Source: Chloroflexota bacterium | GTDB taxonomy: Bacteria; Chloroflexota; UBA6077; FW602-bin22 | DNA length: 64,000 nt | Direction: 5' to 3' | Assembly (NCBI GenBank): GCA_004297775.1 | Contig: SCUE01000017.1 | Coordinates: 51,887-115,886 of the forward strand | Shown here: piece after piece, positions 20,107 through 29,853 of the stretch | How positions within the stretch are numbered: position 1 is the first letter of the stretch | Layout of the letters: every line of letters starts with the position of its first letter | Notes under the pieces: generated by a model | Told to the model about the DNA's origin: nothing | The model's database searches: none | What the model saw: only the letters and a program-made list of their open reading frames with translations | Program-made: the position numbers and the translations under genes

Positions 20107-20668
<562 letters not shown>

Positions 20669-20788
20669 TCAGCTAACCGAGTCGCGCCAGTCGCCCAATG
20701 AGGCTTTTGCTGAGGCGCAAATGATTTCTCATCATGGCGCACGACCACACGCCCTGAAGCTCAGGCCGTCCGTGTCCGGCGTTCGATC

Positions 20789-21091
20789 TCAGCGCGCGCC
20801 AATCAGCCTGGCCGTTTCCCAATGAATCGAGTCTCTACAACACCCGGGGCTATTCAGGTACGCCGCGGGACGCACGGGCTGCGACTCGATCAGGAACCGC
20901 ATCTCGGCACGCGCACAGGCCTCCGTGAGCGAGGCGTAAAGAGCCGTCGTGCCGGGCGGGTTCCAGCGCGCTCCGCGCGTGTTCGGCTGCATCACCGGTC
21001 GGTCGCCGAGCGTGACTCGCCAGGCTATCCCGACGTAGGGGCCGGACTCCGCCTCCCGCAAACGAGCCAGCAGCCATGGATTCGCCGCCAA
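20789..21091 (-). pseudogene. RES-domain toxin, apparently C-terminally truncated
   Basis: 'YVGIAWRVTLGDRPVMQPNTRGARWNPPGTTALYASLTEACARAEM' is RES N-terminal half; sequence diverges after 'RPAAYLNSPGCC' and stops at 101 codons. Confidence 0.65.
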
Positions 21092-21106
21092 TGTCAGCGC
21101 GCATCA

Positions 21107-21451
21107 TCAGACATATGCGCCGTCCTTCAGTTGCGCGATCAGATCGAGCACTCGATCGATCTCGCCGTTGGAGATCAAGTCGGATGGCCTACGCCCGCTC
21201 AGGAGGCGATGGCGCTCGTAGAGCCAGATCCGCGCTTCCTCCGGCGTGTAGATCTCGCCAAGCTCGGTCGCGATGTAGACCAGATCAAGCACTCGCTGCA
21301 GGTGGGCGGACTGTGGCGCGACGCTGGACGAGCGCCAGCGGTGCAGCGTCTGCGGCGTTGTCCCGACCAGGACGGCGACCTCCTTCTCCCGAACACCCGC
21401 CTTCGTGGCGATCGCGTCGAGCCTCTTGGATAGGGGGTTTCCTTCGCTCAT
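21107..21451 (-). CDS. Xre/MbcA/ParS-like antitoxin (RES partner)
   Basis: N-terminal HTH, C-terminal 'TPEEARIWLYERHRLLSGRRPSDLISNGEIDRVLDLI'. Confidence 0.78.
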   Translation of the reverse strand: MSEGNPLSKRLDAIATKAGVREKEVAVLVGTTPQTLHRWRSSSVAPQSAHLQRVLDLVYIATELGEIYTPEEARIWLYERHRLLSGRRPSDLISNGEIDRVLDLIAQLKDGAYV

Positions 21452-21554
21452 CGCACTCGCTCCATCGCCTGGCTCTGACCAAGACGACTCTATCCCAAAA
21501 CTATCACATTCGAGTGACTATTTACGCCACGTCCATTGCGTCGCGCCTGGCTAC

Positions 21555-21790
21555 GTGGTCGGCTCGTCCGTCAGCGCGCCGAATTGGACTGGTACGTCGT
21601 GGCGGATCCGGCGCAGATCGAGATGATCGAGATCGGCTTCCTGAACGGTCGTGAGGAACCGGAGTTGATCGTCCAGGATCAGCCGTCGCAGGGGAGCGTC
21701 TTCACGAACGACGGGCTCTCGTGGAAGGTCCGTCATGTCTTCGGCGGCGGCTGGCTCGACTATCGCGGCGCGGGGCGATCGCCGCGTTGG
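21555..21790 (+). pseudogene. capsid C-terminal relic C
   Basis: Translates VVGSSVSAPNWT-WYVVADPAQIEMIEIGFLNGREEPELIVQDQPSQGSVFTNDGLSWKVRHVFGGGWLDYRGAG, near-identical to the end of 14012-16180 with an in-frame gap and mostly synonymous nucleotide changes. Confidence 0.9.
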
Positions 21791-21929
21791 CTGCGGCGCG
21801 ATCCTGGCTACCGGCCTGGCCCTTGTTCTGAAAGGTGCGAGCGGCCAGGTCGGTACCGTTCATTTGCCATAGTGGGGTCTCGCGTCCAATGGATTCGCAT
21901 CGATCCGGCGAGCTTGGGATACACCGAAG

Positions 21930-22265
21930 TCACTCGAGCAGAGGACGAGCGATTCCACGAATGAGCGCCTCAGTCTCCCGGGGCAGTCGGTCGGCAATCT
22001 CCACATGGCGGGCCTCCCAGTCGACGGACCGAATCTGATCGACGAGCACGACTCCGCGCACGGCGAGTCCGTCTGGCAGCAGAACTTCGAAGGGCCGTCC
22101 CTTCGATCGCGACGTCACCGGCACGGCCAGCGCGAGTCCCGAACGCGCGTTGTACGCTCGCGGCGACAGAATGACCGCCGGCCGATGTCCAGCCTGTTCG
22201 TGATCCGCCTGCGGGTTGAAGTTGAGCCAGACCAGATCACCACGATCGGGTGCAATCGCGGCCAC
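21930..22265 (-). CDS. MazF/PemK family toxin
   Basis: 'DRGDLVWLNFNPQADHEQAGHRPAVILSPRAYN...VPVTSRSKGRPFEV'; GTG start overlapping end of MazE-like gene. Confidence 0.88.
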   Translation of the reverse strand: MAAIAPDRGDLVWLNFNPQADHEQAGHRPAVILSPRAYNARSGLALAVPVTSRSKGRPFEVLLPDGLAVRGVVLVDQIRSVDWEARHVEIADRLPRETEALIRGIARPLLE

Positions 22266-22267
22266 GC

Positions 22268-22582
22268 TTACGAGCTCTGTCCCCGCTCTGCCTGATCCGT
22301 CGGCCACGGCTCCAGCGCCTCGCGTCCGCTGGGCGCGTCGTCGGGCCATGCCTCATTCCCGAACCCGGATTCGGTATCGCCGCCCCGGCCGGCGCCTGGA
22401 TCGCCGAATCCGGCCAGAAGCTCCTCGAGCGTCGGCACGCGCTCGACGGGCGCGGCAATCAGGCGTCCCTGTTGAACCGTCACATCCACTTCAGTGCCCT
22501 GCATAACTCGCGCCTCGTCGGCGAGCGCCTTGGGAATACGCATAGCCAGACTGTTGCCCCACTTCTGCACTGCGACCCGCAT
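22268..22582 (-). CDS. AbrB/MazE-like antitoxin
   Basis: 'MRVAVQKWGNSLAMRIPKALADEARV'. Confidence 0.88.
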   Translation of the reverse strand: MRVAVQKWGNSLAMRIPKALADEARVMQGTEVDVTVQQGRLIAAPVERVPTLEELLAGFGDPGAGRGGDTESGFGNEAWPDDAPSGREALEPWPTDQAERGQSS

Positions 22583-22601
22583 CCCGACCTCCGAATCTCC
22601 G

Positions 22602-22624
22602 ATGTATACACGAAGAGTATACAT
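22602..22624. promoter_or_regulatory. palindromic operator candidate upstream of mazEF-like operon
   Basis: ATGTATAC-N7-GTATACAT, perfect 8-bp arms, 19 bp upstream of the mazE-like ATG. Confidence 0.65.
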
Positions 22625-22653
22625 CCCTCCATTGACCAACTGCGTTTCGCATC

Positions 22654-22776
22654 CGGCCTTGATGCGCAGGTCGTACGCGTCGGTCCAGCGGAGCGTCACG
22701 ACATGGTCACTGTGTCCACGTGTTCGGCGACGGCTGGCTCGACTATCGCGGCGCGTACGGGGCGATCGTGGCGTAG
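22654..22776 (+). pseudogene. capsid 3'-tail relic D plus shared upstream segment
   Basis: 22717-22776 translates HVFGDGWLDYRGAYGAIVA*, one residue different from the capsid C-terminus; 123-bp match to 18541-18663. Confidence 0.85.
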
Positions 22777-23117
22777 GCGGGAACTCGCGAGCGCATCGGT
22801 TTGGAGATGACTCGACGCTCTCGCATTTCTCTACGGGTGCCCGCGCCGGATCAAACCGCCGGCCCTATGGCCGGCGAATCAGGCGATACCGGTCCGTGAA
22901 CGGTCTTCCCGCACAGAAGTCCTTACGACGCGCGATCTCAGCGCGAGGCTCAACTCGGGTTTGGGCCTGATGGTCTCTGGCAATCGCATTGGCATCGGCA
23001 TTGTCAATGTTCGTCTTCCTCCTATTCGCTGTTTCGGTGACGAGCGGCGCTTCAGGTAAGGCTGAATCATCCGAATCGACGCGATCCGAAGCGGCGTAGC
23101 ACTGCCGGTTCGGGATG

Positions 23118-23134
23118 GTCTAGACTATCTAGAC
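23118..23134. promoter_or_regulatory. palindromic operator candidate at Phd/VapC-type locus
   Basis: GTCTAGA-CTA-TCTAGAC, perfect 7-bp arms, one base before the GTG start at 23136. Confidence 0.65.
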
Positions 23135-23135
23135 T

Positions 23136-23390
23136 GTGAAGAACCGAACGGCGTGGCAGTTGCAGGAAGCGAAGCAGAAGTTCAGTCAGGTCGTCCGACA
23201 GGCCCTAGATGAGGGACCCCAGATCGTCACCCGCCACGGCGAGGCGGTGGTGGTGATCGTGGCCGCGGCCGAATTTGCGCACCTGACACGATCACGGATC
23301 GAATTCAACGAGTTCCTGCTGTCCGGTCCGCCTACCGACGACATTGATGTCGAGCGCGATCGCGCGTCGTTCAGAGAGATCGAACTGTGA
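23136..23390 (+). CDS. Phd/YefM family antitoxin
   Basis: 'WQLQEAKQKFSQVVRQALDEGPQIVTRHGEAVVVIVAAAEF'. Confidence 0.9.
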   Translation: MKNRTAWQLQEAKQKFSQVVRQALDEGPQIVTRHGEAVVVIVAAAEFAHLTRSRIEFNEFLLSGPPTDDIDVERDRASFREIEL

Positions 23391-23794
23391 CGTATCTGCT
23401 CGACACAAACGTCGTGTCCGAGGCACGCCGGCTCAACGGCAGCCCACAGGTAAAGTCATGGGTTCGGTCGACACCCGCTAGCACGTGCTTCCTGAGTGTC
23501 CTCACCATCGGCGAGATTCGGCGCGGTGTCGAACTGCTCCGTCGGCACGACCCGATGCAGGCGGAATCTCACGATCGGTGGCTGAGCCAGCTTTCCGACG
23601 AATACGCGGACCGGCTTCTTCCCGTAACTCCCCGGATCGCCGAGGAATGGGGCCTCCTGAACGCGCCCAACCCGCTTCCCGCGGTCGATAGCCTGATTGC
23701 CGCGACCGCCCTCGTCCATGGCCTCATCCTCGTGACGCGGAATGTCGCCGACGTTCGCGCGACAGGCGTTCAAGTCGTCAATCCATTCACATAG
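23387..23794 (+). CDS. PIN-domain toxin (VapC-like)
   Basis: 'MTYLLDTNVVSEARR...FLSVLTIGEIRRGVELL...AVDSLIAATALVHGLILVTRN'; overlaps antitoxin by 4 nt. Confidence 0.93.
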   Translation: MTYLLDTNVVSEARRLNGSPQVKSWVRSTPASTCFLSVLTIGEIRRGVELLRRHDPMQAESHDRWLSQLSDEYADRLLPVTPRIAEEWGLLNAPNPLPAVDSLIAATALVHGLILVTRNVADVRATGVQVVNPFT

Positions 23795-23916: not shown

Positions 23917-24780
23917 CTAACGGAAACTATCGAAGTTGATCTGATCGAACCATCGTTCAATCGTATCGTGATGCTCATCAGACTCACGAATGAGCCGATC
24001 AACTCCGCTCTTGAGGTCAACGTAGTAGCGCGAATTCACGATAATGACGTCGCGATCGCTGACCGTGAGGCCCGCGGGTCGATCACGGCGAATCCGATCA
24101 TCTGTCATCGGGCCATCCTCTCCCACGATCACAAAGCGAGGTCGTCTCTTGGGCGCATATTCGTGGACGAGACCGTTGCGTAGGAGATCGTAAAGGCTGC
24201 TATCTCTCCCCTTCTCCTGACTCACGATGCTCGCGTACGGCTCGCCCATGCCCCAACACATGAAGGCATCAAACGCCTCTCGCGGATCCTTCCTGCCAGT
24301 CAAGAAGTGACCCCAGAACTCGGTATATACGACGAGTCCGAGTGCGGTCAGGAAATTTGTCCGAGCTGCAAAGATCGATCGGTGAAGGTCGTTCATTTGG
24401 AAATCGCGCGCCAGTCTCAGTCTCGACGCAATCTCCTGAGCGCGCGGAGGCGCACGGAGTCGCCACCGATCATCGGCCACTTCAACTTCCAAATTGTGCG
24501 CGCGCGCCACGGCGCGATAGCCATCGGAAAGGCTCGTCGGGATGCCCACGACCTCGAGTCCATGGCGGCGAATCGCTTCCGGCCAGCGCTCATCAATGAC
24601 ATTGAGCATCTCATCGAAGAACGACGGCGTGATGACGCGGGCACCGGTCAGGTCAACGCATGGGGAGTCGGAGTCCTCGAACCCCGGATCAAACGTGTCG
24701 CTCAGGACTCGTCGAGCGACCTCACGCGTGGATAACACCCGCGGCGCTTCCGGCGCAGATAGGATCATCGTTCGGTTCAC
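23917..24780 (-). CDS. STAS-like (DUF4325-type) N-terminal domain fused to putative HEPN-like domain
   Basis: 'SPCVDLTGARVITPSFFDEMLNVI' STAS-like; C-terminal 'DSSLYDLLRNGLVHEYAPKRRP' carries R-x4-H. Confidence 0.5.
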   Translation of the reverse strand: MNRTMILSAPEAPRVLSTREVARRVLSDTFDPGFEDSDSPCVDLTGARVITPSFFDEMLNVIDERWPEAIRRHGLEVVGIPTSLSDGYRAVARAHNLEVEVADDRWRLRAPPRAQEIASRLRLARDFQMNDLHRSIFAARTNFLTALGLVVYTEFWGHFLTGRKDPREAFDAFMCWGMGEPYASIVSQEKGRDSSLYDLLRNGLVHEYAPKRRPRFVIVGEDGPMTDDRIRRDRPAGLTVSDRDVIIVNSRYYVDLKSGVDRLIRESDEHHDTIERWFDQINFDSFR

Positions 24781-25766
24781 GATCGAGAGAGTGTCGGGAT
24801 GGACGCATGTGCCAGCGTGCCCGGGAACAGGGGCGAGCGGAGTGCCGAGAGTTCGCCCGATTCTCCAACACGAAGCGCGCCGATTCCCGAGTGCAGGAGT
24901 AGTTGCCTTCCTGGCACCGCCTGGATGTCTGTCGCAATTGCAAAGAGTCCGATCCCGCGAGTCGGGTCCCCAGTCCCTGAAACGCGCTCACGCACAGCGT
25001 GATCGAGCGCGGTCCAGTCGTAACGCGCGGCCCGCTCATTCGACTGATTTCGGGCCAATGCCGCGCGAACGCCAATACCACCATCCGCAACCACGATGTG
25101 AATTGTGCCCTTCGCATCCATCTCGACAAGGGCGAGGCCGCCAATCGATGAAGCGGCGTGCTGCACGACGTTCGCGGCAAGCTCGGCGAGAACTTCGATC
25201 GCGAGAGTCACCAGGTTCACCGGGACACTGCGCCAGCCCGGCTGATCAGCAACATGATTGATCAAATCCTCCGTCGGCGCTGCAAACACCGTAATCGGCA
25301 GAATGACTCGGGCGCCTGGCGCTCGGAACCGGAGTCCGGTCATGTCAACACTGACATTCGCGTCGAGCAAGGCCTGACACAGGCCAACATCAACAAGGTG
25401 TTGCGCGACGCCGGTGTTCTCGGGAACGAGCAACTCCGCTGACCAGCCGGCTCGTTTCGCCAACTGTAGATAGATCGCCGCCCACAGGATAGCCGGACCA
25501 TTGATGAACTCGACGCGCCGAAGATCAACTTCGACAGCATCCAGGGCGGTTGCCGCCAGCCGAGGATCGTGACCGGCCTCAGCCGTGCGCAGTTGGGCCG
25601 CGTGCCCGAACCGGGGTGGCGGCGTGATTCGATGGGTCAACGTTCCGAAGTATGGAGATTTGGCACGCGTGCGCGCCCGAACCGGGGCTGTGCCGCTCTG
25701 GTCAAGAATCCCAACCGGCGACTCGCGGCGCGGGCCGGCACATCGCGCGAACGATAATGTGAGCAA
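24777..25766 (-). CDS. STAS-like domain + GHKL (HATPase_c) ATPase
   Basis: 'VEVDLRRVEFINGPAILWAAIYLQL' STAS-like; 'VLAELAANVVQHA', 'VVADGGIGV', 'TRGIGLFAI' = N/G1/G2 boxes. True start may be downstream of 25766. Confidence 0.65.
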   Translation of the reverse strand: MLTLSFARCAGPRRESPVGILDQSGTAPVRARTRAKSPYFGTLTHRITPPPRFGHAAQLRTAEAGHDPRLAATALDAVEVDLRRVEFINGPAILWAAIYLQLAKRAGWSAELLVPENTGVAQHLVDVGLCQALLDANVSVDMTGLRFRAPGARVILPITVFAAPTEDLINHVADQPGWRSVPVNLVTLAIEVLAELAANVVQHAASSIGGLALVEMDAKGTIHIVVADGGIGVRAALARNQSNERAARYDWTALDHAVRERVSGTGDPTRGIGLFAIATDIQAVPGRQLLLHSGIGALRVGESGELSALRSPLFPGTLAHASIPTLSRS

Positions 25767-29140: not shown

Positions 29141-29170
29141 GACGTGGCCAACCATTCCTCTCAGCGTATT

Positions 29171-29199
29171 GCTATCCAGAATCCGAGATATTGGATAGC
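29171..29199. promoter_or_regulatory. inverted repeat upstream of VapBC-like locus
   Basis: GCTATCCA-N13-TGGATAGC, perfect 8-bp arms. Confidence 0.55.
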
Positions 29200-29230
29200 C
29201 GACAATCAGTCTTCGCAGTATATTATCGAC

Positions 29231-29437
29231 GTGAGAAAGACGACCATCGAGATTGACGACGATCTCCTTGCGCAAGCCGAAGTGATTCTGGGCACGAAAG
29301 GGATCAAGGCCACCGTGCATCGCGCGCTGGACGATGTCGTGCGGCGCGAGTTGCGGTTGCAGCTCCTGGAGCGCCTGAAGCGCATGGACGGTCTCGATCT
29401 GGATGATCCTGAGGTAATGGCCGGGGCGTGGCGGTAG
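29231..29437 (+). CDS. VapB-type antitoxin
   Basis: 'VRKTTIEIDDDLLAQAEVILGTKGIKATVHRALDDVVRRELR'; GTG start. Confidence 0.85.
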   Translation: MRKTTIEIDDDLLAQAEVILGTKGIKATVHRALDDVVRRELRLQLLERLKRMDGLDLDDPEVMAGAWR

Positions 29438-29853
29438 CCAGTCCGGCCTACGTCGTTGACAAGAGCGCCTTCACCCGGCTGCGTCACGGGAGTGTCGAAG
29501 CCGTTCTGGCACCCCTTGTGGCGCGCGATCAAGTCGCGACGTGCGGCGTTTTCGAGCTGGAGATTCTCTACAGCGCCCGAGATGCGCGGGACTTCGCAGG
29601 CGTTCGCCACGAGCTGCTCGGCCTGCCACGCTTCGACTTCGCGCAAACCGACTTCGATCGCGCGATTGAGGTCCTCGGGATGCTCGCCATCCGCGGCCAG
29701 CATCGCGCGGGCGGACTATCGGACCTCTTGCTGGCCGCTATCGCCGAGCGCCACGCGGTCACGGTCCTCCACTACGACGCCCACTTCGATCTGATTGCCG
29801 CGGTGACGAATCAGCCGACGCGGTGGGTGGTTCCGCGCGGCAGCGTGGCCTGA
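29428..29853 (+). CDS. VapC-type PIN-domain toxin
   Basis: 'YVVDKSAFTRL', 'CGVFELEILYSAR', 'GLSDLLLAAIAERHAVTVLHYDAHFDLIA'. Confidence 0.88.
   Translation: MAVASPAYVVDKSAFTRLRHGSVEAVLAPLVARDQVATCGVFELEILYSARDARDFAGVRHELLGLPRFDFAQTDFDRAIEVLGMLAIRGQHRAGGLSDLLLAAIAERHAVTVLHYDAHFDLIAAVTNQPTRWVVPRGSVA

Follow-up and report, generated by a model that had tools for sequence, protein, structure and literature searches.

The locus described here raises the question of what a kinase and STAS gene pair controls when the STAS protein ends in a HEPN-like domain. Both genes lie on the minus strand of the 64,000-nucleotide stretch of Chloroflexota DNA that was analyzed (the window), which comes from a 4.0-Mb assembly of 38 contigs that is 96% complete, with ~7% estimated contamination. 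Gene A, predicted to encode a CapK/VapK-like STAS + GHKL kinase without an HTH, runs from 25766 to 24777, giving 329 aa counted from the first TTG. Gene B (23917..24780) has a GTG start and encodes a STAS + HEPN-like fusion of 287 aa. Both open reading frames, whose coordinates had been given in an earlier note on this DNA, are present, and the overlap that was described there as ATGA does exist, the stop of A and the start of B sharing 4 nt whose actual bases are GTGA. The true start of A is likely the TTG at 25640, which would give a protein of 287 aa, given that most relatives are 284 to 292 aa long.

The surroundings of the pair include a toxin-antitoxin island at 20.3 to 23.8 kb, in which Pfam recognized BrnT, RES, MazF/PemK, MazE, Phd, and PIN genes and matched an Xre/MbcA/ParS gene just below the cut-off. 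BrnT, RES-Xre, MazEF, and Phd-PIN pairs are packed there inside 4 kb (20110-23791). The RES toxin ORF (20792-21091), which adjoins the Xre-type antitoxin, spans profile positions 3 to 50 of 157 only and looks truncated or frameshifted. A further VapBC-like pair was seen by eye at 29144-29853. We rejected the Phd-PIN pair adjoining gene B as the VapC of the module, given that its PIN gene (23387-23791) is convergent to B, on the opposite strand, and is paired with its own antitoxin gene, Phd. A search for sigma-70 promoter-like sites around the A/B pair gave none, a result that carries little weight in this phylum.

Relationship to the CapKS and VapKSC switches

In CapKS and VapKSC, described in 2026, one kinase/STAS switch controls either a repressor or a toxin complex. 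CapK is an HTH-STAS-GHKL kinase that is activated by ssDNA and phosphorylates a Ser of CapS, a STAS-wHTH repressor (PMC13373217). VapK, VapS, and VapC are a STAS-GHKL kinase, a STAS protein, and a PIN toxin, respectively, and the same activation has been proposed for them, with phospho-mimic and phage data (PMC13373217).

Gene A has the STAS-then-GHKL order of these kinases. Its GHKL (HATPase_c_2-like) domain (24792..25295, minus strand) was matched by Pfam HATPase_c_2 at an E of 4.9e-4, under the cut-off of that model, and contains three motifs (E195-x3-N199-x3-H203, D228-x-G230-x-G232, and R270-G271-x-G273) that are all invariant in an alignment of nine relatives. The N-terminal STAS-like domain (25296..25595, minus strand) was placed by the alignment of the A family and by PDB profile matches, the top ones being MlaB STAS chains, which are weak; its acceptor position has no Ser and is occupied by Pro, Gly, Met, Phe, or similar residues across the family. 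The earlier description of A as a STAS-like domain joined to GHKL boxes is borne out by these motifs and by an architecture that matches CapK. In PHROGs, phrog_3364 (function unknown) matches A residues 71 to 325 (E 9.7e-15).

A plasmid search, for which the query was the winged-helix-type relative L029, returned a locus from Enterobacter roggenkampii in which a CapK-like gene occurs together with a wHTH STAS gene and a multiubiquitin/ThiF operon; at this locus, residues W68, N218, K237, K239, and S54 coincide exactly with the numbering in PMC13373217. The A family aligned with this CapK across STAS + GHKL with an hhalign probability of 98.4 (E 5e-15), and window A alone matched it over 52 GHKL residues (E 2e-6). 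N199 of A (codon 25170-25172, minus strand) aligns with the catalytic Asn of CapK, N218. Of the CapK ssDNA-contact residues W68, K237, and K239, none is conserved in A. F54 of VapK has no securely located counterpart in A, a candidate equivalent being W95, which shares an alignment column with Phe in some VapKs.

Immediately downstream, the N terminus of B carries a DUF4325/CapS-type STAS domain (24481..24780, minus strand). Taken alone, it gave a subthreshold DUF4325 match in Pfam (E 0.14); a profile built from B together with its relatives found crystallized CapS 9Z71 in the PDB, with an E of 2e-6 that owes much to two winged-helix members of the STAS profile, and VapS 9Z7O, upholding the previous assignment of this region as a DUF4325-type STAS domain. 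When a STAS-only profile was used, VapS 9Z7O was the top match, a weak one at E 0.051. S53 of B, the predicted phospho-acceptor (codon 24622-24624, minus strand), aligns with S54 of CapS, and this position is Ser in 11 of 12 STAS sequences. The sole exception is the Ala of L003, which has no kinase gene beside it; this orphan DUF4325-like STAS gene (L003:1426-1767) lies beside DUF5131-like and TcmP-like genes, named by eye.

Collectively, these comparisons support gene A as a putative kinase of the CapKS/VapKSC family, with S53 of B as its predicted substrate site. We filed the pair under neither system, given that A has no HTH and B no wHTH, as CapKS would have, and that no VapC-like PIN gene lies downstream in the same operon, as in VapKSC. 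With VapKSC, it shares a STAS-GHKL kinase without an HTH next to a STAS protein, the gene order of kinase, STAS, and effector, and probably an RNase as the output, but the effector of VapKSC is a separate PIN protein (VapC), whereas the window pair has a HEPN-like effector joined to the STAS domain in one chain. With CapKS, it shares a homologous kinase family, matching Ser and Asn positions, and a STAS domain with a fused C-terminal output domain, although the output of CapS is a wHTH repressor and CapK has the HTH and ssDNA-contact W68 that are both lacking in A. The pair is best read as a layout of the CapKS/VapKSC switch that had not been described before, in which the known kinase/STAS switch is provided with a new, fused output.

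The C-terminal domain of gene B

In HEPN domains, helix 3 ends in an Rx4-6H motif whose R is typically followed by a polar residue, helix 2 holds an acidic residue that is often part of Ex3[KR], and inserts can lie between helices 2 and 3 (PMC3710099). The HEPN-like domain of B (23974..24450, minus strand), defined with the standalone relatives L006 to L012 and AlphaFold2, has E154 in helix 2, R201, H206, and Y208. The R201-NGLV-H206 motif, which the earlier note had matched to the R-x4-6-H signature, is present in B, with the Rx4H at the end of predicted helix 3. We rejected a bare R-x4-H in one sequence as evidence, given that the motif arises in about half (50%) of shuffles of this C-terminal domain and therefore means little there. 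The R and H, whose conservation had been proposed as a check, are invariant together with the helix-2 Glu in all eight aligned domain members, which come from different phyla; R, G, H, and E of R-x-G-x-x-H-E and the Glu of YTE are likewise kept in 8/8. Two positions after H, seven members have Tyr and one has Phe, and Rx4HxY at a helix end is the pattern of HepT, the HEPN-MNT toxins (PMC7641770). R is followed by Asn in the window and by Cys in most of the relatives (Ser in one), and Ex3[KR] occurs in six of the eight members, the window itself having TEFWGH.

As modeled by AlphaFold2, the window domain (pLDDT 81.5, pTM 0.80) and a standalone relative (pLDDT 84.8, pTM 0.82) both have the Glu within helix 2, followed by insert helices, a helix that ends in the Rx4H, beta strands, and finally a long helix. 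Two features of HEPN domains, the conserved Rx4-6H ending helix 3 (by predicted position) and the acidic residue in helix 2, are thus found in 8/8 members. We did not observe a significant HEPN match by Pfam, PDB-sequence, or Foldseek PDB search, the shallow alignments limiting sensitivity; HepT 7AE6 and AbiV 9BJ7 were weak matches only (E 9.4 and 6.4, respectively), and Foldseek of the two AlphaFold2 models against the PDB gave nothing significant. When one model was compared with viral models, two of unknown function were matched (probability 0.95-1.00, TM about 0.5). Searches of Pfam, NCBIfam, PADLOC, and PHROGs with both proteins and the relatives returned nothing informative on the C-terminal domain. 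The pair also differs from HepT in having no MNT partner. The conservation of R and H and the predicted order of the helices therefore fit the HEPN-like region that had been proposed, whereas the missing significant match is at odds with it; on account of that missing match, we regard HEPN as the probable, rather than the demonstrated, identity of this domain.

The C-terminal domain is homologous to small standalone proteins of about 160 to 177 aa from Acidobacteria, Shapirobacteria, Portnoybacteria, Chloroflexi, Planctomycetota, and Deltaproteobacteria bins. Their family pattern is NFLAALGLL...YTEF...R-x-G-L-x-H-E-Y, and no Pfam, PADLOC, or PHROGs model matches them. The HEPN-like family extends beyond the eight aligned members; remoter standalone relatives with RNGFAH or RCGMLH motifs and no Pfam match occur at L036:1435-1914, L037:1405-1953, and L038:1408-1947. 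No relative of gene A, gene B, or the standalone domain turned up on viral contigs, by pattern search, or on plasmids, and in phages no relative of the standalone domain was found. In Shapirobacteria, one standalone HEPN-like gene comes directly after a Ser/Thr-kinase-like gene and has a Fic-like gene close by (L007:3971-5348), and one from Chloroflexi directly follows an MtlR-family gene (L009:4335-5456). The MtlR family is itself placed in the HEPN superfamily.

Proposed mechanism and alternative readings

The PIN RNase of VapKSC, a separate protein, is covered by the STAS protein as long as the latter is unphosphorylated and is released by phosphorylation, and a phospho-mimic at the acceptor residue frees the nuclease (PMC13373217). 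Given this release, the simplest model for the window pair is that the STAS domain of B inhibits the HEPN domain and that phosphorylation frees it. Kinase A would phosphorylate Ser53 in the STAS domain of B once a stress is sensed; until then, the STAS domain would hold the fused HEPN domain inactive in cis, and its release would lead to RNA cleavage and cell arrest, probably as a form of anti-phage or DNA-damage defense. The RNase activity of B, the direction of gating, the trigger, and the role in stress or phage infection are what we infer for this pair. That it is a CapKS/VapKSC-type switch whose output is a HEPN-type RNase, fused to the STAS substrate and freed by phosphorylation, is a proposition that we hold to be evenly balanced. 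The toxin-antitoxin genes around the pair speak for it, as do the homology and conservation described above, whereas the missing significant HEPN match, the single occurrence of the fusion, and the lack in A of the ssDNA-contact residues and the HTH of CapK speak against it. The A/B module encodes no antitoxin, and cis inhibition would therefore have to suffice; the more specific idea of a toxin without an antitoxin, in which the HEPN RNase is silenced in cis by the STAS domain of the same chain, phosphorylation by the neighboring kinase being the only way to turn it on, is a tentative one that we lean slightly against. If true, it would show that direct gating of a fused effector is possible for CapKS-type kinases, and it would add an undescribed HEPN family. 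The fused STAS-HEPN would be a third output of the switch and the most direct, with the effector polypeptide itself phosphorylated, and the scattered, small standalone family may consist of HEPN RNases.

HEPN RNases are generally active as dimers. The gating could consequently run in the opposite direction, with an unphosphorylated STAS dimer joining two HEPN domains into a composite active site and phosphorylation by A separating them, so that the RNase is turned off and A acts as an antitoxin. Phosphorylation does split the STAS dimer of CapS (PMC13373217), and the order of kinase and then effector also fits an antitoxin-toxin pair. We nonetheless consider this polarity unlikely, given that the phospho-mimic acts in the other direction in VapKSC, the nuclease-bearing relative, and that the standalone HEPN-like proteins do without such a kinase, no A homologue having been found at threshold in five of the seven genomes that hold them. 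We similarly doubt that the C-terminal domain is an RNA- or protein-binding regulator with no nuclease activity, which would make the pair a CapKS-like binding switch with the wHTH replaced. The other outputs seen fused to this STAS domain are DNA-binding wHTH domains, and no fold or profile match proves HEPN, but the Glu, Arg, and His that are invariant across phyla look catalytic, and the pattern around them matches the HepT toxins.

The earlier note had likened the pair to anti-sigma partner switching. Partner switching is well supported by the CapK homology, the conserved Asn and Ser, and the recurrence of the pair, whereas the anti-sigma analogue is not the closest one, the DNA-damage and anti-phage family of CapKS/VapKSC being closer. 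The GHKL and STAS folds are common to RsbW/SpoIIAB and RsbV/SpoIIAA (PMC13373217), which likewise combine a GHKL kinase with a STAS substrate that has a conserved Ser. However, their kinase has no extra STAS domain and there is no effector fusion, while A has its own STAS domain in a CapK architecture, and no sigma factor gene was recognized among the neighbors of A in the ORF list by eye or by Pfam of the island. A classical RsbW/RsbV-like switch on a sigma factor, to which the C-terminal domain would be incidental, is very improbable on these grounds. It is scarcely credible that the fusion is an assembly artifact or a decaying gene in a metagenome-type bin: it was seen once, in a genome with the contig number and contamination given above, but B is a single intact 287-codon ORF with both domains full length and the key residues kept, and its start overlaps the stop of A.

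Partner genes and outputs among relatives of gene A

Matches to A were found in 8 of 399 genomes of its phylum, its own genome included, at nine places in total, and its homologues were found in three phyla. A STAS gene is directly next in all eight relatives first examined (the window excluded), and these partners are short DUF4325-like STAS proteins, six of them bare and two with a winged helix. Two further phyla contributed 37 additional places matching A. Among the relatives, VapKSC-type STAS+PIN operons were seen at L047, L064, L066, L069, and L070, as well as L030 (PIN by eye); STAS-wHTH partners at L039, L042, and L043 (wHTH by eye); bare STAS partners at L040, L041, L051, L065, and L031; and kinase and STAS in a single chain, kinase first, at L045, L050, L063, L068, L071, and L032. 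Output swapping in this kinase family is established, given that, across several phyla, bare STAS, STAS-wHTH, and STAS+PIN partners all occur with the same kinase. For several matches in the two further phyla (e.g., L052 to L057), no STAS partner was seen among the downstream genes, and kinase-STAS pairing is therefore not universal at this distance.

The co-occurrence on which the earlier note had staked the module holds for the kinase+STAS pair, which recurs, but not for the STAS-HEPN fusion, which was seen in the window only within the sample searched. No HEPN-like tail was present among the places from the two further phyla, and no second fusion was found in three other phyla, where all open frames found with the HEPN-like profile were ≤204 aa.

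In one genus (L024, L025, and L027), the kinase and a bare STAS gene lie beside the same zinc-dehydrogenase-like and methyltransferase-like genes, with no evident effector at these loci, possibly a housekeeping use of the switch. The PADLOC DrmA model weakly matches the kinases at L022:2531-3403 (E 4e-7) and L033:3641-4747 (E 8e-5), and automated defense annotation could therefore mislabel them. The kinase + STAS pair at L022:1286-3781 directly follows an integrase-like gene, which suggests that this pair is carried on a mobile element.
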